Source of the DNA: a virus
Direction: 5' to 3' (one strand)
Length of the DNA stretch: 56,872 nt
IMG/VR virus record: IMGVR_UViG_3300046170_000355
Span: 1 to 56,872 of that record
The stretch's first letter is position 1. Each line of letters starts with the position of its first letter. This document shows positions 11,024-55,531 of this stretch, in pieces. A program made the translations under genes and the position numbers. Below the pieces are notes generated by a model. That model saw only the letters and a program-made list of their open reading frames with translations. It was not told the origin of the DNA and did not search any database.

Positions 11024-12422
11024 AGCAGATACTTGCTTACCTGATGTAGAAGGACTTTGTACTCCTGGTGTCACTATTGAAGAAGATGTTACTGTAGAAA
11101 AAACAGAAGAAGATAAAGGTACAGAAATTATCTATACCACCACAACCACCACAACCACCACTACAACAACTGTTACTAATGAAGATTCAGGAGACATTCT
11201 TGATGGTGATAATGATTATGTCACTACAAGCAAAGAAGGTGATATGGATTACGATTGGGGTGGTCAAGGCCCTGCAAATATTCCTAGTGGTAATTCTTGT
11301 TATGGCCTCGGTTCTGATAAGTGTGCTCAGATTACAGGTGGAGGTAATTCAACTTCTAATATGGGTGTTGATGGTATGGGTACAACATTTGTTAATACAA
11401 TTGACATTTCTGATTTAAGTATAGATAAGGGTGGTCAAGTTAGATATTCCATAAAGGTTGATAAACAAGATGCTCAAGATCGAATCTACATGCACATTAC
11501 AGGAACTAATGGAGGGACTACAGTCTTTTCAGGCACTGATGTTTTGTCTGAATCTGGAGTTTCGTCAGGCTATCAATCATACAATGGAGCTTTCGATTTC
11601 AGTGGCGTTTTAAAAAGTTTAACAATTGAAATAGGGGGTAGGGATATTAATCTTGCTATAGGTCCTTTATTTGACGATGTATCGGTCAATGTATTCTACA
11701 ATGTTATCAATACGATTATTGAACAACAAATCACTTCAGTAGAAGAAATAGTTTATCTCAATATCTTTGATCCTGTAGAAATAGAATATGCTACAGAGAT
11801 TATTGAATTTAATGATGTCGTTGTTGATGATGCGGGAGACGTGAGTTTTGAACCTATAGAACCTCAACAAGAAGAAGTTTCTTATGAAACGGTTGAGGTA
11901 GAAATACAAGAAATACAAACAGATTTTGAAGTAGATATACCAGAACCTGAAACACAAATGGCAGAAGTAGAAATGGAAATTGAAGCAGAATTAGAAGAGA
12001 CAATTGAAGTAGCTAGTGTCGAAGAGACCAAAGAAGAACCTTCAGAAAAGCCTGTTGAAGAAACTAAAGAAGAGGTTCCTGTAGAAAGTGAAAATAGTCC
12101 TAAAACTGTAGAAGAAAAACCTGAAGAGGTTGAAGAACCAGAAGAAAAACCTGCAAAAGAACCTTCAGCAAAAGAAAAAGCAGCTACAAAAATAGTTAAA
12201 GATATTGATGATAAAGAACGTTATGACGACACTGCTCAAACAAAAACATTACTTGTAATGCAGATATTAGGTGATACAAAAACCTTCTTTACTCCTACTC
12301 AAAGCTTTACAGAAGTAGATGTAGGGGAGTATTTAAACAAGACATTAGAGGATCAATATGGTATGTTATTTGATATGGCACAAGAAAATACAATTCAGGA
12401 GATGATAAATGGCCAGTATTGA
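10959..12422 (+). CDS. Exported acidic protein with Thr repeat
   Basis: 487 aa from the ATG at 10959 (AGGAG ahead). A signal peptide (YLKLCLFLLLVSFYSKA) is followed by Cys-containing mature sequence, a run of 12 Thr (about 60-72), a beta-rich Gly/Ser/Asp middle, and a Glu/Val/Pro-rich acidic tail (about 290-410). The C-terminus has a helical end. The layout suggests an extracellular or periplasmic structural protein. No known family. A GTG three bases upstream is an alternative start. Confidence 0.6.
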   Translation: MYNKLLYLKLCLFLLLVSFYSKADTCLPDVEGLCTPGVTIEEDVTVEKTEEDKGTEIIYTTTTTTTTTTTTVTNEDSGDILDGDNDYVTTSKEGDMDYDWGGQGPANIPSGNSCYGLGSDKCAQITGGGNSTSNMGVDGMGTTFVNTIDISDLSIDKGGQVRYSIKVDKQDAQDRIYMHITGTNGGTTVFSGTDVLSESGVSSGYQSYNGAFDFSGVLKSLTIEIGGRDINLAIGPLFDDVSVNVFYNVINTIIEQQITSVEEIVYLNIFDPVEIEYATEIIEFNDVVVDDAGDVSFEPIEPQQEEVSYETVEVEIQEIQTDFEVDIPEPETQMAEVEMEIEAELEETIEVASVEETKEEPSEKPVEETKEEVPVESENSPKTVEEKPEEVEEPEEKPAKEPSAKEKAATKIVKDIDDKERYDDTAQTKTLLVMQILGDTKTFFTPTQSFTEVDVGEYLNKTLEDQYGMLFDMAQENTIQEMINGQY

Positions 12423-32971: not shown

Positions 32972-35424
32972 TGGATGTCAACAAATTATTATCTTATGAA
33001 TATTTTGGTCTTCTAACCGATGAAGAAACAGAAGGAGTTAATTCTTTAAGAGGTGCAAATAAATTACCTGCACCTTACGCCTTTGGACAAGAAAAAGATC
33101 CTCAAGAAAATTTAAATGCTTTTAAAGAACTAATAAACTCTTCTGCTGTAGGAGATTTACAATTAAACTTAACAGACGAGGAATATGCTGACCTTTTCTC
33201 TAGTACTCAAAAATTAAATCAATGGTTTGAAAAACCCGAAAACAGAGCAATGGTCGGTGCTACTGTAGGAGGAGTTGTTCTTCCCACTCTTTTACCAGGA
33301 GCAGGTCCCGCAACATTACCTGCTAGAATTGTAGCATTAATAAATAAGTACCCAAGAATGGCAAAAGTATTTGCAGCTATAACAGGAGGTTTTGGTGGAT
33401 CAGCTCCTTTTATTGAAGCAGATTCTGCTCAAGAATTCATTCAACAAGCGGGTAAGTATGGTTTAATAGAGGGTGTAGGAGAAGGAGCTATTCAAACAAT
33501 AGCTAAATTTTTTCCTTTGTTTAAAGATTTCATTAAATCAAGAGTTAAAAAATTTCCAGAAAAAGGAGCGGAAGAAGCGATAGAACAAGGAGTAATTTTA
33601 AGTCCTGCTCAAAGCACATCAGACAGAATAGTCGACACTATACAAAACATAGCAGACAATTCTTGGAGTGGTGGCGGTACAATGGCACAAGGCAGAGCAA
33701 GAGGAATAGAGACTGCGACTGAAAATATTGGAAATTTATTATTAAATAAATTAGATCCAAAAGTAACAAAAGTTTTAGACAACTCTGTTGAAGATTTTGT
33801 AGCAAATGCATCTGGTAAAGATTTTGCGGGAGTAATGCAGAATTTTTTAAAAAATGGAAGATTAGCTCAAGATATATATATTGATCAAGCATATAAAAAT
33901 TTAGACAAAGCTGTTGCAGGAACTATAGGCAATGCAAAAATAGTAGATATTTCAGGTTTAAAAAAATATGTAATGAATTTACAAAAAGACGTTCCTACCG
34001 ACTCTACTTTAGCGACTGTGTATAAACAAATTGCTGATCTTCCAGATTATGTTGACTTTACTTATGCAAAAAATTTACGTTCAATGTTTTTAGGAAATAC
34101 AAAAGCATTTCAAGAAACAGGTATACCTGTTTCTACTTTCTCCACAAAAGTATCAGGAGCTGCTTTTGCAAAAGTAAATAAAGAAATGGAAAACGCTGTA
34201 AAAGCTATCGCAGATAGTCACGCTAATAAATTAATAAATGAGGGTATGGATGAAGTTTTAGCAAAAGAAGCAGGACAAAAATTATTTCAACAATTAAATG
34301 GATCTTTTAGATCTGCACAAGATTTTTTCTCATTAAGTAAAGATACATTCAATGGAACAATGGTGTCTAAAATTATAAACGCAGCACCTGATCGTGTTTA
34401 TAATATGTTGTTAAAATCAAGATCACCAAACTTAGTTAAATCTTTTAATCAGTTATTAGACCAAGCTGTTAAAGATGGGTCTATAAAATTATCAGAAAAA
34501 TTAGGTTTAAAAAAACAAGTTCAAGGAGAATTTTTTGCAAAAATTTTAACAGATAGTCTTGACCAAGGAACTGGAATTGTAAATGCATCTAAGTTATTTC
34601 AACAAATGAGAACTTTTGGCGGCACAGCCAATAGAGCACTAATAGAGTTATTTGATAATGACCCTGGTTTGTTAAAAGATTTTAGATCTTTAACTAGGTC
34701 TCTTCAATTAGCTCAATCAAAAGGTATGGAAGGGGCAAACGGTGGTTTTTTAATTCAATTATTAAGTGCAGGCGCTTTAGGAGAAGTTGTAGGTCCAGAG
34801 GGACTAACCAACTTAGGGTGGGGTGACGCTGCTGCATTTGGTTTAATTTTTGGAGGACCGAAAGCTGTTGCTGATGCTTTTACTAATCCAAACTTTATTA
34901 AAAATATTTTTAAAGTTAATAAATTAAAACCAGGAAGCGATATGTACACTAGAGCAGTCGTACAAACTGTAAGCGATCTTGTAGAAAAAAACTTTATAAG
35001 CAATGAAAATGTTAATGACTTCATTGATGAGGGTGTTCAAAAAAATTATCTAAATGAAAACGCAAAAAAATATTTTGAAAATAAAACTAAAAAACAAGGA
35101 ACCGATAATAGTTCTACTCTTGTTACATCTCCAGAAGAATTAGAAGCAAAAGCAGATTTATTAAAACAATTAGATATTCAAACTTTAGATGATGACGAGC
35201 CTCTAGCTGTTGCTTCTCTTGACTCTCCTCCATCTAGATCCGTGTCTATGGCACCACTAGACTTAGGACCGCTTACAGCTGCTTCAGCACCTCCTTCACA
35301 GTCTATTAATCCAGAAACTATAGCTAGTTTAGATTCTGTTGGACTACCTTTCTTTCAAGCAAAAGATGGTGGATTAGCGAGTATTGAGCAAAAGAAATTT
35401 AAAAAACCACAGGTGGTATCGTAA
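32971..35424 (+). CDS. Large internal virion-like protein
   Basis: 817 aa, ATG overlapping the previous TAA. A hydrophobic pair of segments (MVGATVGGVVLPTLLPGAG, about 91-110, and KVFAAITGGFGGSAPF) could cross a membrane; the rest is helical. Ends QAKDGGLASIEQKKF. Large helical proteins with membrane segments in this position are typical of podovirus ejection proteins. No lytic transglycosylase motif seen. Confidence 0.55.
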   Translation: MDVNKLLSYEYFGLLTDEETEGVNSLRGANKLPAPYAFGQEKDPQENLNAFKELINSSAVGDLQLNLTDEEYADLFSSTQKLNQWFEKPENRAMVGATVGGVVLPTLLPGAGPATLPARIVALINKYPRMAKVFAAITGGFGGSAPFIEADSAQEFIQQAGKYGLIEGVGEGAIQTIAKFFPLFKDFIKSRVKKFPEKGAEEAIEQGVILSPAQSTSDRIVDTIQNIADNSWSGGGTMAQGRARGIETATENIGNLLLNKLDPKVTKVLDNSVEDFVANASGKDFAGVMQNFLKNGRLAQDIYIDQAYKNLDKAVAGTIGNAKIVDISGLKKYVMNLQKDVPTDSTLATVYKQIADLPDYVDFTYAKNLRSMFLGNTKAFQETGIPVSTFSTKVSGAAFAKVNKEMENAVKAIADSHANKLINEGMDEVLAKEAGQKLFQQLNGSFRSAQDFFSLSKDTFNGTMVSKIINAAPDRVYNMLLKSRSPNLVKSFNQLLDQAVKDGSIKLSEKLGLKKQVQGEFFAKILTDSLDQGTGIVNASKLFQQMRTFGGTANRALIELFDNDPGLLKDFRSLTRSLQLAQSKGMEGANGGFLIQLLSAGALGEVVGPEGLTNLGWGDAAAFGLIFGGPKAVADAFTNPNFIKNIFKVNKLKPGSDMYTRAVVQTVSDLVEKNFISNENVNDFIDEGVQKNYLNENAKKYFENKTKKQGTDNSSTLVTSPEELEAKADLLKQLDIQTLDDDEPLAVASLDSPPSRSVSMAPLDLGPLTAASAPPSQSINPETIASLDSVGLPFFQAKDGGLASIEQKKFKKPQVVS

Positions 35425-50546: not shown

Positions 50547-50656
50547 TTTTTCTTTTTTCTCCGTTTTTTCTTAGCTGCTCTTTTAATTTTAGCAGCACCT
50601 GTTGGTGGACCATGACGCATTGACACTGCATTACATGATCCAATAGTTTTACCCAT
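50543..50656 (-). CDS. Very basic small protein
   Basis: 37 aa ending in a run of Lys and Arg (KIKRAAKKKRRKKKK). Overlaps the next gene (ATGA) and the previous gene (TAATG). The middle of a coupled three-gene operon that includes a candidate repressor. Confidence 0.5.
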   Translation of the reverse strand: MGKTIGSCNAVSMRHGPPTGAAKIKRAAKKKRRKKKK

Positions 50657-50847
50657 TATATTAAATCCATCAATTTATTGATGTCGTGGAGTTCGTTTTG
50701 TAATTTTGTGATTTCGTGAGTAAAACGATCATTCACTAACTCCACTTTTGCTTTGCCTCGAACTTTAAAATACTTTTCTAATTTTATAAGTATCTCTTCT
50801 TTTCTTTTGGCGTGTTTATTTAGCCATGTTTGTTCTGTTTCGTTCAT
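50656..50847 (-). CDS. Small coiled-coil protein
   Basis: 63 aa, helical (KRKEEILIKLEKYFKVRGKA, KVELVNDRFTHEITKLQNEL). AAAGGAAAG site. First gene after ribozyme site 1, coupled to the basic 37-aa protein. No family recognised. Confidence 0.6.
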   Translation of the reverse strand: MNETEQTWLNKHAKRKEEILIKLEKYFKVRGKAKVELVNDRFTHEITKLQNELHDINKLMDLI

Positions 50848-50892
50848 TCTTCTTTCCTTTCTTATATTATTTTATAGCTTTTTACAATAAAT

Positions 50893-50904
50893 GCTACAGA
50901 CACT
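50893..50904 (-). repeat. Ribozyme target site 1
   Basis: Minus-strand AGUGUC/UGUAGC. Matches the ribozyme arms with one G-U wobble in stem I. No RBS in the repeat here. Lies 46 bases ahead of the 63-aa gene, just after the promoter element at 50905. Confidence 0.6.
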
Positions 50905-50961
50905 TTCTTATATATGTATACGTGCGTATGCGTATGCACTAATGCAATTTTTATTTAATGA
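50905..50961 (-). promoter_or_regulatory. Promoter-like element with ACGCACGTATA core
   Basis: Minus strand: TTGCAT, TGCATACGCATACGCACG and TATACATATATAAG in order, ending beside target site 1. It shares about 45 bases with 52327-52376 and the ACGCACGTATATA core with the + promoter at 50169. Candidate phage-specific promoter with operators. Confidence 0.5.
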
Positions 50962-51030
50962 TAATGTCTTAAAAATTATTATAGTAATAGAGTGTATTTA
51001 TAAAATGCACTCCTCCTTTAATAAGACAAT

Positions 51031-51057
51031 AAGGGGTTTTCCTAATGAAAGCCCCTT
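51031..51057 (-). terminator. Hairpin after the 89-aa gene
   Basis: AAGGGGTTTTC (51031-51041) pairs with GAAAGCCCCTT (51047-51057), loop CTAAT. Located 15 bases past the 89-aa gene's stop. Likely a terminator on the minus strand. Confidence 0.65.
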
Positions 51058-51071
51058 ATACTGATTTTGAT

Positions 51072-51341
51072 CTAAAGACTTGGAATAATTGAAAGATCTC
51101 TCAAATTTGTATGAATTGCCCCAACGTCATTTCCTTCTTCATCTGACATAATCATTAATTCAATATCTTGTTTCATTTGTTTGACACCAAAAGGCTTATT
51201 AAGATGAAGGACAATTCCATGTCCATCGATTTCACCCTCTCCCCATTGGTCATGAGGTTTGAAAGTAACTTTTGTTATTCTCATATTTTTTAAAAAATAA
51301 TTTGTTTTCATTTCCCATTCTTTAATTTTACTTTTTTTCAT
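51072..51341 (-). CDS. Hypothetical protein
   Basis: 89 aa. A mixed alpha/beta look (ITKVTFKPHDQWGEGEIDGH and KQMKQDIELMIMSDEEGNDV). Behind target site 2 with an AGGAGG site. No family recognised. Confidence 0.6.
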   Translation of the reverse strand: MKKSKIKEWEMKTNYFLKNMRITKVTFKPHDQWGEGEIDGHGIVLHLNKPFGVKQMKQDIELMIMSDEEGNDVGAIHTNLRDLSIIPSL

Positions 51342-51347
51342 TTTTGG

Positions 51348-51370
51348 TAGCCTCCTATTGCTACAGACAC
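51348..51370 (-). repeat. Ribozyme target site 2 with AGGAGG
   Basis: Minus-strand UGUGUC/UGUAGC-AAUAGGAGG-CUA. The position before GUGUC is U, so stem III has four pairs, and stem I has a G-U wobble. The RBS feeds the 89-aa gene. Confidence 0.7.
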
Positions 51371-51371
51371 A

Positions 51372-51401
51372 AAGGGAGGGAAAACTTAATTTCCCTCCCT
51401 T
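51372..51401 (-). terminator. Hairpin between 185-aa gene and site 2
   Basis: AAGGGAGGGAAA (51372-51383) pairs with TTTCCCTCCCTT (51390-51401), loop ACTTAA. The upstream gene's stop is 8 bases before it. The surrounding 48 bases are duplicated at 51977-52024. Confidence 0.7.
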
Positions 51402-51409
51402 AAAATTAT

Positions 51410-51967
51410 TTAATGACCATATAAAGAATCAGTCTCGTATTTGGGGACATTGTCCCACTTACTGCCATAAGTAAAGCCATATAAAGCAATATGGTTATTT
51501 CTACCCACTCTTTTTGTCATGGTTTCCCCTTTTTCAATCCTTGTTGGTTGGACTTTGTTTCCATATGACCCATTTTGTTCGACATATTCTTTTTGTACTT
51601 TGACAATTTCAATTGTTTGTTTGCCTTTTAGAGCTACAACTTTAAAAAAGTCAACATTGGTTTGATCATATCCCCAAGAACAGTAAATAAAGTCACCGAT
51701 TTGATAATCGTGCCCTTGGCTTCTTTCTTTTCTTCTTTCGACTACAGATTGTTTTTGTGAAATTCTTCTTTCAATAGCTTTTTTGATTGTTTCATCCATT
51801 TGATTCAAATCTTTAAATCTATAATGCCAAAAAGGTTTTTTTGTTTTTGGTGTATGACAACAAGCAACCATTTTTATAGTATCTGCGAATATTTCTAAAT
51901 CGTTTAAATCATCTTTTATAATATGATCTGTATTATATTTTTCGTAGTTGTTTGGTATTATTCTCAT
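51410..51967 (-). CDS. Conserved hypothetical protein (SWGYDQTNVDF motif)
   Basis: 185 aa. The stretch GDFIYCSWGYDQTNVDFFKV is a motif I recall from many plasmid and phage proteins of unknown function. N-terminal part has CCHTPKTKKPFWHYRF. Behind target site 3 and AGGAGG. Confidence 0.65.
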   Translation of the reverse strand: MRIIPNNYEKYNTDHIIKDDLNDLEIFADTIKMVACCHTPKTKKPFWHYRFKDLNQMDETIKKAIERRISQKQSVVERRKERSQGHDYQIGDFIYCSWGYDQTNVDFFKVVALKGKQTIEIVKVQKEYVEQNGSYGNKVQPTRIEKGETMTKRVGRNNHIALYGFTYGSKWDNVPKYETDSLYGH

Positions 51968-51973
51968 AATTTA

Positions 51974-51996
51974 TAGCCTCCTATTGCTACAGACAC
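51974..51996 (-). repeat. Ribozyme target site 3 with AGGAGG
   Basis: Minus-strand UGUGUC/UGUAGC-AAUAGGAGG-CUA, identical in core to site 2, with the G-U wobble and a four-pair stem III. Cleavage would fall between 51992 and 51991. Confidence 0.7.
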
Positions 51997-52000
51997 AAAG

Positions 52001-52024
52001 GGAGGGAAAACTTAATTTCCCTCC
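52001..52024 (-). terminator. Hairpin with stop codon in loop (gene at 52012)
   Basis: GGAGGGAAA (52001-52009) pairs with TTTCCCTCC (52016-52024), loop ACTTAA, which contains the TAA of the upstream gene (52012-52014 on +). Confidence 0.7.
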
Positions 52025-52296
52025 AATTCTCCTCTTATTGTTTTTATGCAGTCCCAACAAAAAACATTGTCATCAATGTCAAAATTGTTTTTATTCTGAT
52101 AATCTTCAATTTTTTTGTCATCACATTCAAAATTCTCAGAACTTAAATACATAGCTTGTTCTTCTCTTTCTTGATGAGAGCCACCAAGATCAAAATAATC
52201 TTGGCATTTAGAACATTCTCTAAATGAAAATGGTTCATCTGTTAATTCTTCTTGAGTAGATAAAGAAAATGTATCAAATAATTGTTTACTAATCAT
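52012..52296 (-). CDS. Putative zinc-binding protein
   Basis: 94 aa from the ATG at 52296, chosen because it follows AGGAGG of target site 4; the open frame extends upstream through the repeat (SVYSNRRL) but has no RBS. CSKCQDYFD and VFCWDCIKTI form two Cys pairs for a zinc site. Confidence 0.6.
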   Translation of the reverse strand: MISKQLFDTFSLSTQEELTDEPFSFRECSKCQDYFDLGGSHQEREEQAMYLSSENFECDDKKIEDYQNKNNFDIDDNVFCWDCIKTIRGELEGN

Positions 52297-52302
52297 TTTT
52301 AA

Positions 52303-52326
52303 TAGCCTCCTATTGCTATAGACACT
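52303..52326 (-). repeat. Ribozyme target site 4 with AGGAGG
   Basis: Minus-strand AGUGUC/UAUAGC-AAUAGGAGG-CUA, perfect match to the ribozyme arms, next to a TATATAAG promoter-like sequence. Confidence 0.75.
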
Positions 52327-52376
52327 TATATATACGTGCGTATATGCGTATGGCACTAATGCAATTTTTATTTAAA
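52327..52376 (-). promoter_or_regulatory. Second promoter-like element, ACGCACGTATA core
   Basis: Minus strand: TTGCATTAGTGCC, ATACGCATATACGCACG and TATATAAG ending 1 base from target site 4. Shared with 50905-50961. With a -10 at TATATA, transcription would begin near the target site, so the message start would resemble the processed 5' ends. Confidence 0.5.
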
Positions 52377-52425
52377 AAAATTTTTTGAGATCCAGGTTTT
52401 TAAGTAAAAATTTTTGATTTTTTAA

Positions 52426-52440
52426 ATTGCTATAGACACT
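52426..52440 (-). repeat. Ribozyme target site 5, no gene or RBS
   Basis: Minus-strand AGUGUC/UAUAGC-AAU, then AT-rich sequence. The cleavage motif is intact but AGGAGG and a gene are missing. It may define the 3' end of the 89-aa message. Confidence 0.65.
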
Positions 52441-52448
52441 CAAAGAAA

Positions 52449-52465
52449 TGGGGGATTAACCCCCA
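52449..52465 (-). terminator. Hairpin with stop codon in loop (gene at 52456)
   Basis: TGGGGG (52449-52454) pairs with CCCCCA (52460-52465), loop ATTAA, which contains the TAA of the upstream gene at 52456-52458. Confidence 0.7.
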
Positions 52466-52725
52466 AAATCCTTCTTTATTGTTTCAGCTTCTTCGATATC
52501 TCCCCATTGAGTTCTAATCTCATCAAAAGATAATTGAAAAGGATAGTTTGCAAGAAAGGGTTCAAAGTCGTTTATATCTTCCCCTTGCTCTTGGATTTCA
52601 ATGACATTCTCTTGAGCAGAAAAAATAAGATCATTAATTTTTTTCATTTTTTCTAAAAGCTCTAATTTCTGCTCAGTAATATATTTTTGACTTCCTAATT
52701 CTTCTAAAGTTTTATTTATATTCAT
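52456..52725 (-). CDS. Hypothetical protein
   Basis: 89 aa from the ATG at 52725, behind target site 6 and AGGAGG. The in-frame extension (SLSVYSNRRLFN) runs through the repeat and is not used. Helical N-terminus and acidic body. No family recognised. Confidence 0.6.
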   Translation of the reverse strand: MNINKTLEELGSQKYITEQKLELLEKMKKINDLIFSAQENVIEIQEQGEDINDFEPFLANYPFQLSFDEIRTQWGDIEEAETIKKDFGG

Positions 52726-52731
52726 ATTAAA

Positions 52732-52755
52732 TAGCCTCCTATTGCTATAGACACT
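52732..52755 (-). repeat. Ribozyme target site 6 with AGGAGG
   Basis: Minus-strand GAGUGUC/UAUAGC-AAUAGGAGG-CUA. Perfect match; cleavage between 52750 and 52749. Confidence 0.75.
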
Positions 52756-52763
52756 CAGAGAGA

Positions 52764-52783
52764 AAAGGGGTTTAAACCCCTTT
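52764..52783 (-). terminator. Palindromic hairpin with stop codon at centre (gene at 52772)
   Basis: AAAGGGGTTTAAACCCCTTT, a perfect 20-bp palindrome; the TAA of the upstream gene at 52772-52774 is in its centre. Confidence 0.7.
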
Positions 52784-52963
52784 AATTTTCTTTTCAATTT
52801 CTTTTAATTTTTCATCATTCGCTTTTAATCTTTTATTTGCAAAATTTATTTTTCGATGCCAGAAATTTATATAACTTTCAATTTCTTCTTTTTCGTTTTG
52901 AAGCTTGAAAAGTTTTTTTTCTTTTTCTGACATTTGATCAATGTCTTTTTGTGTTACTGTCAT
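52772..52963 (-). CDS. Small coiled-coil protein
   Basis: 63 aa, overlapping the upstream 67-aa gene by 4 bases (ATGA), so it is coupled and has no target site of its own. Starts MTVTQKDIDQMSEKEKKLFK; coiled coil to the end. No family recognised. Confidence 0.6.
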   Translation of the reverse strand: MTVTQKDIDQMSEKEKKLFKLQNEKEEIESYINFWHRKINFANKRLKANDEKLKEIEKKIKGV

Positions 52964-53163
52964 TGGCTTTCTTCCTCATAATGTAAATTAGATAAATGAA
53001 TTTCTTTTTCCCAATCTAATTTAAATAAATCGCAATAATGCCTTAAATCTGCAATGACATCCCCAACCCTTGGATATGTGTTTTTCTGGTTCTTCTCATA
53101 AAGTTTTTCATTTAATCCTAAAAGTTTTTTTACTTTTAATGCTCTTTGTCTATTAGTTATCAT
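52960..53163 (-). CDS. Small hypothetical protein
   Basis: 67 aa, behind target site 7. MITNRQRALKVKKLLGLNEK and DVIADLRHYCDLFKLDW. Possible small DNA-binding fold but no clear motif. Confidence 0.6.
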   Translation of the reverse strand: MITNRQRALKVKKLLGLNEKLYEKNQKNTYPRVGDVIADLRHYCDLFKLDWEKEIHLSNLHYEEESQ

Positions 53164-53169
53164 ATTAAA

Positions 53170-53195
53170 TAGCCTCCTTAATTGCTATAGACACT
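53170..53195 (-). repeat. Ribozyme target site 7, TA insertion before AGGAGG
   Basis: Minus-strand GAGUGUC/UAUAGC-AAUUAAGGAGG-CUA, two bases longer before the RBS than other sites. The UAA here is the stop of the upstream 109-aa reading frame. Confidence 0.7.
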
Positions 53196-53507
53196 CAAGA
53201 CAAAAAGGGCTAAGAAGCCCTTTTCATTCCTTTCAATGATTGATTTTAGTATAAGTTTAGAAGCCTCGTTGATAGTGTCTTCTTTAATTGCTAGGTGTAA
53301 ATCTTCACTAAGCCAATTATATAAAAAATCAAATTCATCTTTTTTTAATATTACTGCTTCATAATTTTTATGAGTAAATAATATTGCTTTTGATTTTCTC
53401 TCATGAGAGACAATATTTAAAAGAGTATCTAAAAGAACTTTCTTTGATATTTTTTCTCTTTCAAATTGTTCGACTAAATCATTTAAATCATTAATTAAAC
53501 TAGTCAT
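53178..53507 (-). CDS. Hypothetical protein, C-terminus crosses the repeat
   Basis: 109 aa, ATG overlapping the upstream gene's stop. Helical. The frame runs through the hairpin at 53203-53224 and the target site, ending SVYSN. A one-base deletion in the AAAA run at 53221-53224 would instead give a stop inside the hairpin loop (ERNERAS), as in neighbouring genes. So the 3' end may be misassembled or real. Confidence 0.6.
   Translation of the reverse strand: MTSLINDLNDLVEQFEREKISKKVLLDTLLNIVSHERKSKAILFTHKNYEAVILKKDEFDFLYNWLSEDLHLAIKEDTINEASKLILKSIIERNEKGFLALFVLSVYSN
53203..53224 (-). terminator. Hairpin after the 109-aa gene
   Basis: AAAAGGGC (53203-53210) pairs with GCCCTTTT (53217-53224), loop TAAGAA (TTCTTA on the coding strand). 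Confidence 0.7.
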
Positions 53508-53799
53508 TAATATTTTCCCCCCATCCTTTTGATTTTCTCACTAAATCATAAGCAGAGTTATCATCTAAAATATTGGCTAATTCATAATTTAAATCGTCTT
53601 TTTCTTCTTGCGTCTTGTCCTTATGTAAATCAATTAATTTATCTTCTAGGGTTTCAATTGTGTTTACTAGATTTTGAATATCTTCATTTTGCTTTTTGAT
53701 TTCCTTTTCAAGATCTTTTTTTATTTCTTCAAGATCAATTACTATTTGATTTACTGAATATTGCACCTCTTCATATTTTTCTTTTTGTTTTTTATTCAT
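53500..53799 (-). CDS. Coiled-coil protein
   Basis: 99 aa behind target site 8. Almost entirely charged coiled coil (VNQIVIDLEEIKKDLEKEIK and IQNLVNTIETLEDKLIDLHK). Likely oligomeric. The stop overlaps the next ATG. Confidence 0.6.
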   Translation of the reverse strand: MNKKQKEKYEEVQYSVNQIVIDLEEIKKDLEKEIKKQNEDIQNLVNTIETLEDKLIDLHKDKTQEEKDDLNYELANILDDNSAYDLVRKSKGWGENIND

Positions 53800-53805
53800 A
53801 TTTAA

Positions 53806-53829
53806 TAGCCTCCTATTGCTATAGACACT
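53806..53829 (-). repeat. Ribozyme target site 8 with AGGAGG
   Basis: Minus-strand AAGUGUC/UAUAGC-AAUAGGAGG-CUA. Perfect arm match; cleavage between 53824 and 53823. Confidence 0.75.
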
Positions 53830-53838
53830 TAAAGAGAA

Positions 53839-53872
53839 CCACGAAGAGAGAAACTCGCCTCGTGGCTCGTGG
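53839..53872 (-). terminator. Larger hairpin before site 8
   Basis: CCACGA (53839-53844) pairs with either TCGTGG copy (53860-53865 or 53867-53872) with an inner GAG/CTC helix. The 40-aa gene's stop is 20 bases upstream, so here the stop is outside the loop. Confidence 0.55.
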
Positions 53873-53891
53873 CTTTTATTATGATTTATAT

Positions 53892-54014
53892 TTATTTATT
53901 GCTTATAAAACTTTTATAAAATTGAATAAAAGCTCTAATTCCCATTTCATTCGGTGCAAATAATTTGCCCCAACCAACATTGGCATTATACATTTCTTGC
54001 ATTTCTTTGGACAT
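53892..54014 (-). CDS. Short hypothetical protein
   Basis: 40 aa (MSKEMQEMYNANVGWGKLFA...), start behind AAAGGGGGTGAT, under target site 9, in the same cassette layout as its neighbours. Small size, but the RBS and the cassette support it. Confidence 0.5.
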   Translation of the reverse strand: MSKEMQEMYNANVGWGKLFAPNEMGIRAFIQFYKSFISNK

Positions 54015-54036
54015 TATCAAAATAAATCACCCCCTT

Positions 54037-54048
54037 TCTACAGACACT
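54037..54048 (-). repeat. Ribozyme target site 9, partial
   Basis: Minus-strand GAGUGUC/UGUAGA. Five of six stem I pairs with one G-U; the last base is mismatched. The usual AGGAGG is replaced by AAAGGGGGU. Confidence 0.6.
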
Positions 54049-54054
54049 CAGAGA

Positions 54055-54074
54055 AGGAGGCAATTAAGCCTCCT
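54055..54074 (-). terminator. Hairpin with stop codon in loop (gene at 54064)
   Basis: AGGAGGC (54055-54061) pairs with GCCTCCT (54068-54074), loop AATTAA; the TAA of the upstream gene is in the loop. Confidence 0.7.
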
Positions 54075-54450
54075 CCTGATTTTCAATAGATATATTTTCG
54101 ATTATTCTATTATCGTGGTTGGGATTATTGGTTTCATAACCGAAACCCTCTTCCTCGTCATCATAATTAATATATTCGTCAATACTTTTCCAAGGTTTGA
54201 AAGAGTATTCAAGGCAGTTAGTTGCATAATGATATGCAATAATATGATCATTATTTAAATGTATAAATAAATGAAAAAAATTACCTCCACTTCCATAATT
54301 ATCAACTTCTTTAATTTCATAAAGAATATCGAAATTATTAAACCAAGGGATATTTTTTTTAATAAGATCAAAGAAATATTCTTTTTTATTTATTAAGTCT
54401 GTTAATCTTAAAAATTCAAAATGTTCTTGTCGTGTTAATTGTAGTTTCAT
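54064..54450 (-). CDS. Hypothetical protein
   Basis: 128 aa from the ATG at 54450 behind target site 10 and AGGAGG; the in-frame extension (SVYSNRRLFI) is not used. Acidic, with LTRQEHFEFLRLTDLINKKE at the start and DEEEGFGYETNNPNHDNRII near the end. No family recognised. Confidence 0.6.
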   Translation of the reverse strand: MKLQLTRQEHFEFLRLTDLINKKEYFFDLIKKNIPWFNNFDILYEIKEVDNYGSGGNFFHLFIHLNNDHIIAYHYATNCLEYSFKPWKSIDEYINYDDEEEGFGYETNNPNHDNRIIENISIENQEEA

Positions 54451-54456
54451 AATAAA

Positions 54457-54480
54457 TAGCCTCCTATTGCTATAGACACT
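54457..54480 (-). repeat. Ribozyme target site 10 with AGGAGG
   Basis: Minus-strand GAGUGUC/UAUAGC-AAUAGGAGG-CUA. Perfect match; cleavage between 54475 and 54474. Confidence 0.75.
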
Positions 54481-54483
54481 CAA

Positions 54484-54507
54484 GAGAAAGGGCTAAGAAG
54501 CCCTCTC
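54484..54507 (-). terminator. Hairpin with stop codon at loop edge (gene at 54493)
   Basis: AGGGC (54489-54493) pairs with GCCCT (54500-54504), loop TAAGAA; an outer GAG/CTC helix extends it. The TAG of the upstream gene is at the loop edge. Confidence 0.65.
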
Positions 54508-54885
54508 CATTGCGTTATTAAATCCAACTATAAAACCTAATAATTCATGCTTAGAATTAAATCTTTTATAGTCTTCATTATATCGACTGTAACCAATATT
54601 GATTGAATAATCGTGGAAAGATATTCCTTGGTTTTCCACTCTGTTCAATAATCTTTGATCATAATCTTTAGTAGATTTTTCTAATAATTTTTTTAAGTTT
54701 CGTTTAAATTGAAAACATTGATCAGCGTAATAATATTTATTATCACCACTCAAACGAAAATTAATATTTTCTTTATTTCGAATAAATTGTAGCTCGTTTA
54801 GTTCAAGATATTCTTCTGTAATGTGTTCGCCTTTTCTTACTTTATCTACTAATTCAATATATCTTTTTTGTTGTTTCTTATTCAT
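54493..54885 (-). CDS. Hypothetical protein
   Basis: 130 aa from the ATG at 54885 behind target site 11 and AGGAGG. Helical, Lys/Glu-rich (KKQQKRYIELVDKVRKGEHI). The in-frame upstream extension is not used. No family recognised. Confidence 0.6.
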   Translation of the reverse strand: MNKKQQKRYIELVDKVRKGEHITEEYLELNELQFIRNKENINFRLSGDNKYYYADQCFQFKRNLKKLLEKSTKDYDQRLLNRVENQGISFHDYSINIGYSRYNEDYKRFNSKHELLGFIVGFNNAMERAS

Positions 54886-54891
54886 AATAAA

Positions 54892-54915
54892 TAGCCTCCT
54901 ATTGCTATAGACACT
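54892..54915 (-). repeat. Ribozyme target site 11 with AGGAGG
   Basis: Minus-strand GAGUGUC/UAUAGC-AAUAGGAGG-CUA. Perfect match; cleavage between 54910 and 54909. Confidence 0.75.
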
Positions 54916-54924
54916 CAAGGGAAA

Positions 54925-54943
54925 GGGGACTTTATAAGTCCCC
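54925..54943 (-). terminator. Hairpin with stop codon in loop (gene at 54932)
   Basis: GGGGACTT (54925-54932) pairs with AAGTCCCC (54936-54943), loop TAT; the TAA of the upstream gene lies at the stem-loop junction. Confidence 0.7.
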
Positions 54944-55273
54944 ATTTAATTTATGGCAATGTAAAGCGTAACCAATGGGGCAACCATGTTTGCCCCATTG
55001 ATCGTCTTTAAAATTATAAAATTCGTTTCTTCTTTGTTCTAAGAAAAAACACTCATACCCATTAAAATCTAATTCATAAGGGTTTAAGTCATCGTCAAAA
55101 TGCCAACATTTGCCAATTTTAACAATGTATCGAATAAAGGCTCTCGCCTCGCTGATCGTTTTAATTTGTTTTCTTATAAAACGATGATAGGGCAATTTTG
55201 TCCAATATTCGTTGGGGTGATCATCTTTTGAAAAACAAAAATCTGCTCTTTGGTTTAAATAATCTTGTTTCAT
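54932..55273 (-). CDS. Hypothetical protein, first gene of the array
   Basis: 113 aa, under target site 12. The stretch DLNPYELDFNGYECFFLEQR and four Cys suggest a compact folded protein. First cassette downstream of the ribozyme. No family recognised. Confidence 0.6.
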   Translation of the reverse strand: MKQDYLNQRADFCFSKDDHPNEYWTKLPYHRFIRKQIKTISEARAFIRYIVKIGKCWHFDDDLNPYELDFNGYECFFLEQRRNEFYNFKDDQWGKHGCPIGYALHCHKLNGDL

Positions 55274-55279
55274 AATAAA

Positions 55280-55301
55280 TAGCCTCCTATTGCTATAGAC
55301 A
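55280..55301 (-). repeat. Ribozyme target site 12 with AGGAGG (nearest the ribozyme)
   Basis: Minus-strand UUGUC/UAUAGC-AAUAGGAGG-CUA. Stem III is shortened (only A15.1-U, C-G and possibly A-U), because GUGUC is UUGUC here. It is only 22 bases from the ribozyme 3' end, so cis cleavage with a GGGGGA hairpin closing stem III is possible. Confidence 0.7.
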
Positions 55302-55302
55302 A

Positions 55303-55319
55303 GGGGGAAAATATCCCCC
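55303..55319 (-). terminator. GGGGG/CCCCC hairpin between ribozyme and first site
   Basis: Minus strand GGGGG (55319-55315) pairs with CCCCC (55307-55303), loop of seven A/U bases. It would sit inside stem III of a cis-folded hammerhead or end the ribozyme RNA. No U-run, so it may be structural. Confidence 0.55.
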
Positions 55320-55322
55320 TTT

Positions 55323-55363
55323 AGTGTTTCGCCTATTTAAGGCTCATCAGTATAGCTTTGGAG
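55323..55363 (-). ncRNA. Hammerhead ribozyme catalytic strand
   Basis: Minus strand: stem I arm GCUAUA (55356-55351), CUGAUGA (55350-55344), stem II GCC/GGC with loop UUAAAUA (55343-55331), GAAA (55330-55327), stem III arm ACACU (A15.1 to 55323). Every conserved hammerhead core position is met. The arms are complementary to the repeated AGUGUC/UAUAGC sites at 50.9-55.3 kb. Just 5' of the stem I arm, CUCC (55363-55360) can pair with GGAG of the site RBS across an internal loop. Activity is inferred. Confidence 0.85.
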
Positions 55364-55531
55364 TGTTTCGACTGTTCAACTTTGGAAGGTGTCACCTTCT
55401 AGGCTCTGTGCCTTAAGGACTATCTATTTATCCTCGCATTAAGTGTTCAATATGTTCGGAACACCTAACGAAATAAGTTCAATACTTACCGACCGAAGTC
55501 GACCCTAATTACCCCAATGACTAAATTATAT
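55323..55531 (-). ncRNA. Structured leader RNA containing the ribozyme
   Basis: About 200 bases with several hairpins: GGUGUUC/GAACAC, GGAU/GUCC, GGCACAGAGCC, GAAGGUGACACCUUC. A second GAAACACUC (55370-55362) and CCAAAG occur just upstream in the same order, as if a ribozyme unit was duplicated and lost its CUGAUGA. Probably the 5' part of the array transcript. Confidence 0.5.

Follow-up and report, generated by a model that had tools for sequence, protein, structure and literature searches.

Among natural RNAs, RNase P RNA cuts other RNA molecules at numerous sites; it works with protein partners in vivo and leaves a 5'-phosphate. Small nucleolytic ribozymes are regarded as self-acting only in nature, and a 2017 review describes natural hammerheads as acting only in cis (PMC6155905). 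In prophages, clustered cis hammerheads flank phage genes and have been proposed to process long phage transcripts (Perreault 2011, PMC3088659). The mammalian Clec2 mRNAs contain a discontinuous hammerhead, with the catalytic and substrate strands lying apart in one mRNA (reviewed in PMC6155905). In the open-access literature, we found no report of a natural trans-acting phage hammerhead, or of one hammerhead serving many sites.

Here we analyzed a viral stretch of 56,872 nucleotides (IMG/VR record IMGVR_UViG_3300046170_000355, hereafter the window), where a single hammerhead core is found in the leader of an operon and 11 further sites, located between the genes, match the arms of this core. 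We suggest, with a probability of roughly two in three, that this is a natural multiple-target trans-acting hammerhead, which would free itself in cis and process the operon into hairpin-capped single-gene mRNAs.

The ribozyme unit and its conservation

Judged from its sequence, the segment 55363-55284 (-), within the 5' leader of a phage operon, contains all the elements of a type I hammerhead, with cleavage predicted (Table 1). It reads CUCC-AAA-GCUAUA-CUGAUGA-GCCU-UAAAU-AGGC-GAA-ACA-CUAA-AGGGGG-AUAUUUU-CCCCCU-UGUC↓UAUAGC-AAUA-GGAG (the arrow marks the predicted cut), and the ATG of the first gene starts at 55273 (-). The first site is composed of UUGUC (55302-55298), UAUAGC (55297-55292) and GGAG (55287-55284), all on the minus strand. 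Since it reads UUGUC, stem III in cis is reduced to 3 bp, followed by a 4-nt bulge (CUAA) and a 6-bp hairpin. By the order of the elements, the window and 13 relatives are of type I, stem I being the open helix and stems II and III closed, and the triplet at every first site is GUC, in agreement with the NUH rule. The conserved loop UUAAU/UAAAU and the internal loop AAA/AAUA are compatible with a tertiary contact between loop II and stem I. The core is matched once in the window, against 0.14 matches expected from shuffles.

A previous sequence-only reading had proposed a cis-acting hammerhead here, and all the elements it named are present on the minus strand where it had placed them, including the spacing of about 22 bases between the ACAC arm and the first site. 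The type I cis fold, with stem III closed by the hairpin, is allowed by the sequence and conserved in relatives. Stem I is longer than proposed, with six pairs (GCUAUA/UAUAGC), the internal loop AAA/AAUA, and then CUCC/GGAG, a pairing that takes in the Shine-Dalgarno of the first gene. The stem III weakness pointed out at this site is indeed peculiar to the window, the only one with UUGUC, while GUGUC is found in 13/13 aligned relatives. Relative to the unconstrained minimum, forcing the cis fold costs 2.2 kcal/mol in the window and 0.6-4.2 kcal/mol in the 13 relatives, values that leave out the stabilisation by the core and by loop-loop (tertiary) contacts. The local hairpin often extends in cis, competing with stem III by 0.6-4.2 kcal/mol. 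Considering GUGUC in the relatives, UUGUC in the window and these folding costs, cis cleavage at 55298/55297 seems plausible and indeed likely, stem III being weaker in this phage. The GUGU segment showed no significant excess of sequestration at first sites in comparison with other sites (p 0.07). Since the upstream hairpin is present at nearly every site of the operon and is not particular to the first one, the first site looks like any other site module, except that it immediately follows the catalytic strand.

Table 1. Ribozyme elements, predicted cleavage sites and their context in the window.
Feature	Position	Strand	Details
Leader domain 5' of the ribozyme	55364..55530 (approximate)	-	alignments A1/A2, RNAalifold
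Outer stem I 5' strand CUCC	55360..55363	-	pairs with the site's GGAG (Shine-Dalgarno); invariant in 14/14
Inner stem I 5' arm GCUAUA	55351..55356	-	substrate-recognition arm
Hammerhead core CUGAUGA	55344..55350	-	CUGAUGA or CUGAGGA in relatives
Stem II GCCU-UAAAU-AGGC	55331..55343	-	compensatory changes among relatives
Core GAA and stem III 5' arm ACAC	55324..55330	-	GAA 55330-55328; ACAC 55327-55324
Hairpin AGGGGG-AUAUUUU-CCCCCU	55302..55320	-	would close stem III in cis; doubles as the site's standard upstream hairpin
First (cis) site UUGUC↓UAUAGCAAUAGGAG	55284..55302	-	predicted cut 55298/55297
Operon; genes small, most without a known function	50650..55273	-	punctuated by sites
Predicted trans site GUGUC↓UAUAGC	54891..54914	-	cut 54910/54909
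Predicted trans site	54456..54479	-	cut 54475/54474
Degenerate trans site GUGUC↓UGUAGA	54024..54047	-	predicted cut 54043/54042
Predicted trans site	53805..53828	-	cut 53824/53823
Predicted trans site	53169..53194	-	cut 53190/53189
Predicted trans site	52731..52754	-	cut 52750/52749
Predicted trans site without Shine-Dalgarno	52416..52439	-	cut 52435/52434; upstream end of the 114-nt non-coding spacer
Predicted trans site	52302..52325	-	cut 52321/52320; downstream end of the spacer
Predicted trans site GUGUC↓UGUAGC	51973..51996	-	cut 51992/51991
Predicted trans site GUGUC↓UGUAGC	51347..51370	-	hairpin partner GCUAC; cut 51366/51365
Operon-terminal site GUGUC↓UGUAGC	50865..50903	-	no adjacent Shine-Dalgarno; own 5' hairpin; predicted cut 50899/50898

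Besides the window, pattern scans recovered 18 IMG/VR contigs in which the complete ribozyme unit heads the same operon. Exactly one hammerhead core is present in 14 of the 19 searched records and none has more, with 0 control matches. In 14 aligned leaders, RNAalifold recovers stems I, II and III unguided, and the structure described above is paired in 99.6% of the cells versus 28-50% in slid controls. Stem II has compensatory changes at 3 of its 4 pairs, and its 11 doubly changed cells were matched by 0 of 500 shuffles. The leaders of L020, L021 and L022 are closely similar, yet their stem II differs by compensated changes. All three helices are kept, stem I with one-sided G-U changes only and stem III invariant save for the fourth pair of the window. 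The core C3-U-G-A-N7-G-A9 and G12-A-A14, with A15.1-U16.1, is found in 14/14 leaders. Position 7, where the hammerhead core tolerates any base, is U in 13 of them and G in one, and the CUGAGGA cores of L023 and L061 are changed solely at this position.

In seven larger contigs, TerL is 84-98% identical to the terminase of the window. This identity places the relatives in one genus-like group of tailed phages, and the site counts are therefore not fully independent. The nearest named phages by TerL (55-60% identity), among them the Pelagibacter phages HTVC027P and HTVC023P, lack the system, and scans of four complete phages with related terminases found neither the core nor the sites. Searches against INPHARED phages gave no match to the operon or to the first 13 kb of L016, and none beyond a chance one to the L016 leader. 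The two matches from the scan of genome contigs, in Bathyarchaeota and Shinella, look like chance, and L059 is a chance coding match rather than a relative. When other arm families with the same geometry were searched, just this family was found, in addition to two coding chance matches and one unrelated core next to tRNA-like sequence. A separate hammerhead-like core (CUGAUGAGGCUUGAAUAGCCGAAAC) adjoins apparent tRNA genes in an unrelated IMG/VR contig (L071 3100-3137 (-)).

The leader has other features of its own. The region 55440-55262 of the window has a fold z of -3.5. A structured domain of ~130 nt precedes the ribozyme, with the conserved sequence GAUAGACC..GGCGAACAAA..AAGUCUAAAGGGCGAAC..ACAGAGACAC..GGUAUCRCAGARGAUGCC (L016 12320-12480; also L004, L013-L015, L018, L020-L023 and L028), and is diverged in the window (55530-55364). 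It shows compensatory changes in two helices and has no Rfam match. Directly upstream of the leader there is a sigma-70-like promoter (TTGANN..TAnnnT) with a constant spacing of 16 bp (L016 about 12300-12335; in the same place in L004, L013, L014, L015 and L020). A palindrome-like GTACC(C)ATATGGTAC, which may be an operator, overlaps this promoter in most cases.

Sites between the genes

Perfect substrate matches (GTCTATAGC) occur 8 times in the window, all within this operon, and matches with one mismatch occur 20 times against 7.6 expected. A lone perfect substrate match, GTGTCTATGGC, lies inside a gene of the structural region (35242-35252 (+)), where about one would be expected by chance. 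The 114-nt non-coding spacer between two of the sites (52434-52321) would be excised as a small RNA, and a conserved counterpart exists in relatives (AAGGUAAACCAU..GGGUAGGUUUUUAAAUUUUACCC). Before certain sites, a CATACGCATATACGCACGTATATATAAG-like repeat replaces the usual hairpin (52350-52325 and 50945-50903 in the window; also L002, L015 and L018). Gene order behind the sites is mosaic, with 28 shared families and 18 singletons among 104 proteins, as if the sites were cassette boundaries for recombination (operons of the window, L002, L014, L017, L018, L020, L022, L023 and L046-L050).

Around 100 sites (A)GUGUC↓URURGC are found in the relatives, and their variation consists of A-to-G changes that keep the pairing to the arm GCUAUA. 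The sites, 96 in this count, lie on a single strand within each record, with 0 control matches. A pairing-blind finder (GTC-N6-GGAGG-ATG) returned 99 matches in 21 loci, with UAUAGC in 20, UGUAGC in 37, UAUGGC in 37 and UAUAGA in 1; four of the 99 are chance matches. In 94 of the 99 (UAUAGC, UGUAGC or UAUGGC), a pyrimidine never occupies the two variable positions. When IMG/VR was scanned with both positions set to N, the real sites carried AG (31), GA (27) or AA (11), the other five matches being chance ones in coding context of unrelated contigs. The partner strand of the local hairpin co-varies with the site, since UAUGGC always occurs with GCC and URUAGC always with GCU. This hairpin alone would also permit C or U, so purine-only variation indicates pairing to the fixed arm GCUAUA. 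The limitation to A or G is our main argument that the ribozyme reads all the sites. The base 5' of GUGU is linked to the next enzyme base (Fisher p 0.0017), which adds little since the sites are related.

Two conserved classes of sites have no nearby Shine-Dalgarno, one operon-terminal and the other in mid-operon, opening a non-coding spacer. Sites of this kind retain GUGUCURUAGC, and the terminal class keeps a hairpin with other sequence (e.g. UAUAGCAAAUAAUUUGUUAUA). The element therefore seems to be more than a translation leader.

Each predicted cut sits between the terminal hairpin of the upstream gene and the initial hairpin of the downstream gene. The upstream hairpins have a mean of -15.4 kcal/mol and a mean z of -3.6 (98 sites). 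On the product side, pairing stands at 0.77-0.90 over positions +2 to +6 and drops to 0.12 at +7 (116 sites), so the 5' hairpin begins at most one base from the predicted new 5' end. We paired the strand 55363-55298, corresponding to the cis-cleavage product, with each site in RNAcofold, and the unconstrained minimum was a trans hammerhead at 54912, 54477, 53826, 52752, 52437 and 51368. Binding estimates range from -4.7 to -10.2 kcal/mol at the correctly registered trans sites, versus -4.3 at the first site (the off-register row 54054, for the degenerate site, is left out of these energies), in line with the sequence-only reading, which rated activity in cis as less certain than the trans match elsewhere.

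A proposed pathway and its rivals

The architecture, the conservation with compensatory change, the sites with their pairing constraint, the flanking hairpins and the single core per record can be read directly from the sequences. From these we infer cleavage, action in trans, the order of cuts and the fate of the mRNAs, which the hairpins would stabilise. Pairing, conservation and cofolding agree on one ribozyme for many sites, with activity predicted. The hammerhead would fold together with the first site, which follows it immediately, and cleave itself off in cis. Either the released leader RNA or a ribozyme that remains part of its transcript would then pair through the same arms with the 11 other sites and cleave them, converting the polycistronic transcript into mostly single-gene mRNAs. 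We consider this sequence of self-release and cleavage at 11 sites quite likely. After each cut, the upstream mRNA would end just past a strong hairpin and the downstream one would start with another, whose 5' strand begins no more than one nucleotide past the new 5'-OH end. Product release from a stem I of up to 10 bp could be slow; the product strand would be contested between the ribozyme and the downstream 5' hairpin, which could aid this release.

Nature's known hammerheads act in cis (PMC6155905), and the one described here could cut just the first site, the others being uncut leader copies spread with gene cassettes. Gene order in the operon is mosaic among relatives, so cassettes with the shared leader seem to move. 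However, the 5' half GUGUC, useless to a moved leader, is retained at nearly all sites, variation is confined to changes preserving the pairing to the ribozyme, the target is retained at sites lacking a Shine-Dalgarno, and the ribozyme matches its first site less well than the trans sites, all of which make this explanation unlikely. The sequence fits pairing in trans and long-range pairing in cis, within one transcript, equally well. As the sites lie on one transcript, ~0.1-6 kb from the ribozyme, the leader may reach each of them on its own transcript and not on another molecule. We regard this as rather improbable, since the first site is so close that self-release would probably come first, and later cuts would then be intermolecular.

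Explanations that dispense with catalysis seem less probable still. CUCC can pair with GGAG at most sites, and the leader RNA might be a non-catalytic antisense regulator that hides the Shine-Dalgarno through CUCC and GCUAUA. Antisense pairing needs neither the conserved catalytic core, nor the GUC triplet, nor the compensated stem II, and two conserved site classes have no Shine-Dalgarno to hide, so we find it very unlikely. The repeats might also be promoters recognized by an RNA polymerase or sigma factor of the phage, or else operators bound by a protein, with an incidental resemblance to a ribozyme substrate; a conserved repeated element does precede most genes, and GTGTCTATAG loosely recalls T7-like promoters. 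Such coincidence is hardly credible when the element is matched, over 10 bp plus CUCC/GGAG, by the arms of a hammerhead core that is itself independently conserved, and when RNA hairpin partners co-vary with the sites. No T7-like RNA polymerase was found in 11 records either, although the control likewise gave no match.

Comparison with known ribozymes

If the trans-acting hammerhead is real, a ribozyme with a dozen dedicated sites would be a natural protein-free RNA endonuclease with its own mRNA-processing code, and short RNAs would allow a direct test of the question of natural trans-acting small ribozymes. The system would also hint at a way for a phage to exchange gene cassettes, each gene retaining its own processed mRNA.

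The motif itself is an old hammerhead, and it is the one-to-many arrangement that is new to us. With type I hammerheads (Rfam clan CL00010), it shares the core CUGANGA/GAAA and cleavage after GUC. The nearest family is Hammerhead_HH9 (RF02275), which has a similar open bipartite stem I with an internal loop and a short stem II. The phage unit differs in having a stem III of 3-4 pairs plus a bulge, and the 18.3 bits of the window fall short of the gathering score of 52, outside the family; neither the window nor any relative reached the gathering score of any Rfam family. It also differs from other type I hammerheads in that its operon contains many more sites matched by its arms. The prophage hammerheads of Perreault have a complete ribozyme per cut, whereas here there is one catalytic strand and ~12 sites with the substrate strand only. 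The Clec2 hammerhead resembles the phage unit in its separate catalytic and substrate strands, but it is of type III, lies in a mammalian 3' UTR and has one substrate per ribozyme, with no multi-site processing. With RNase P RNA, an unrelated RNA, the proposed phage system would share the cleavage of other RNAs at many sites.
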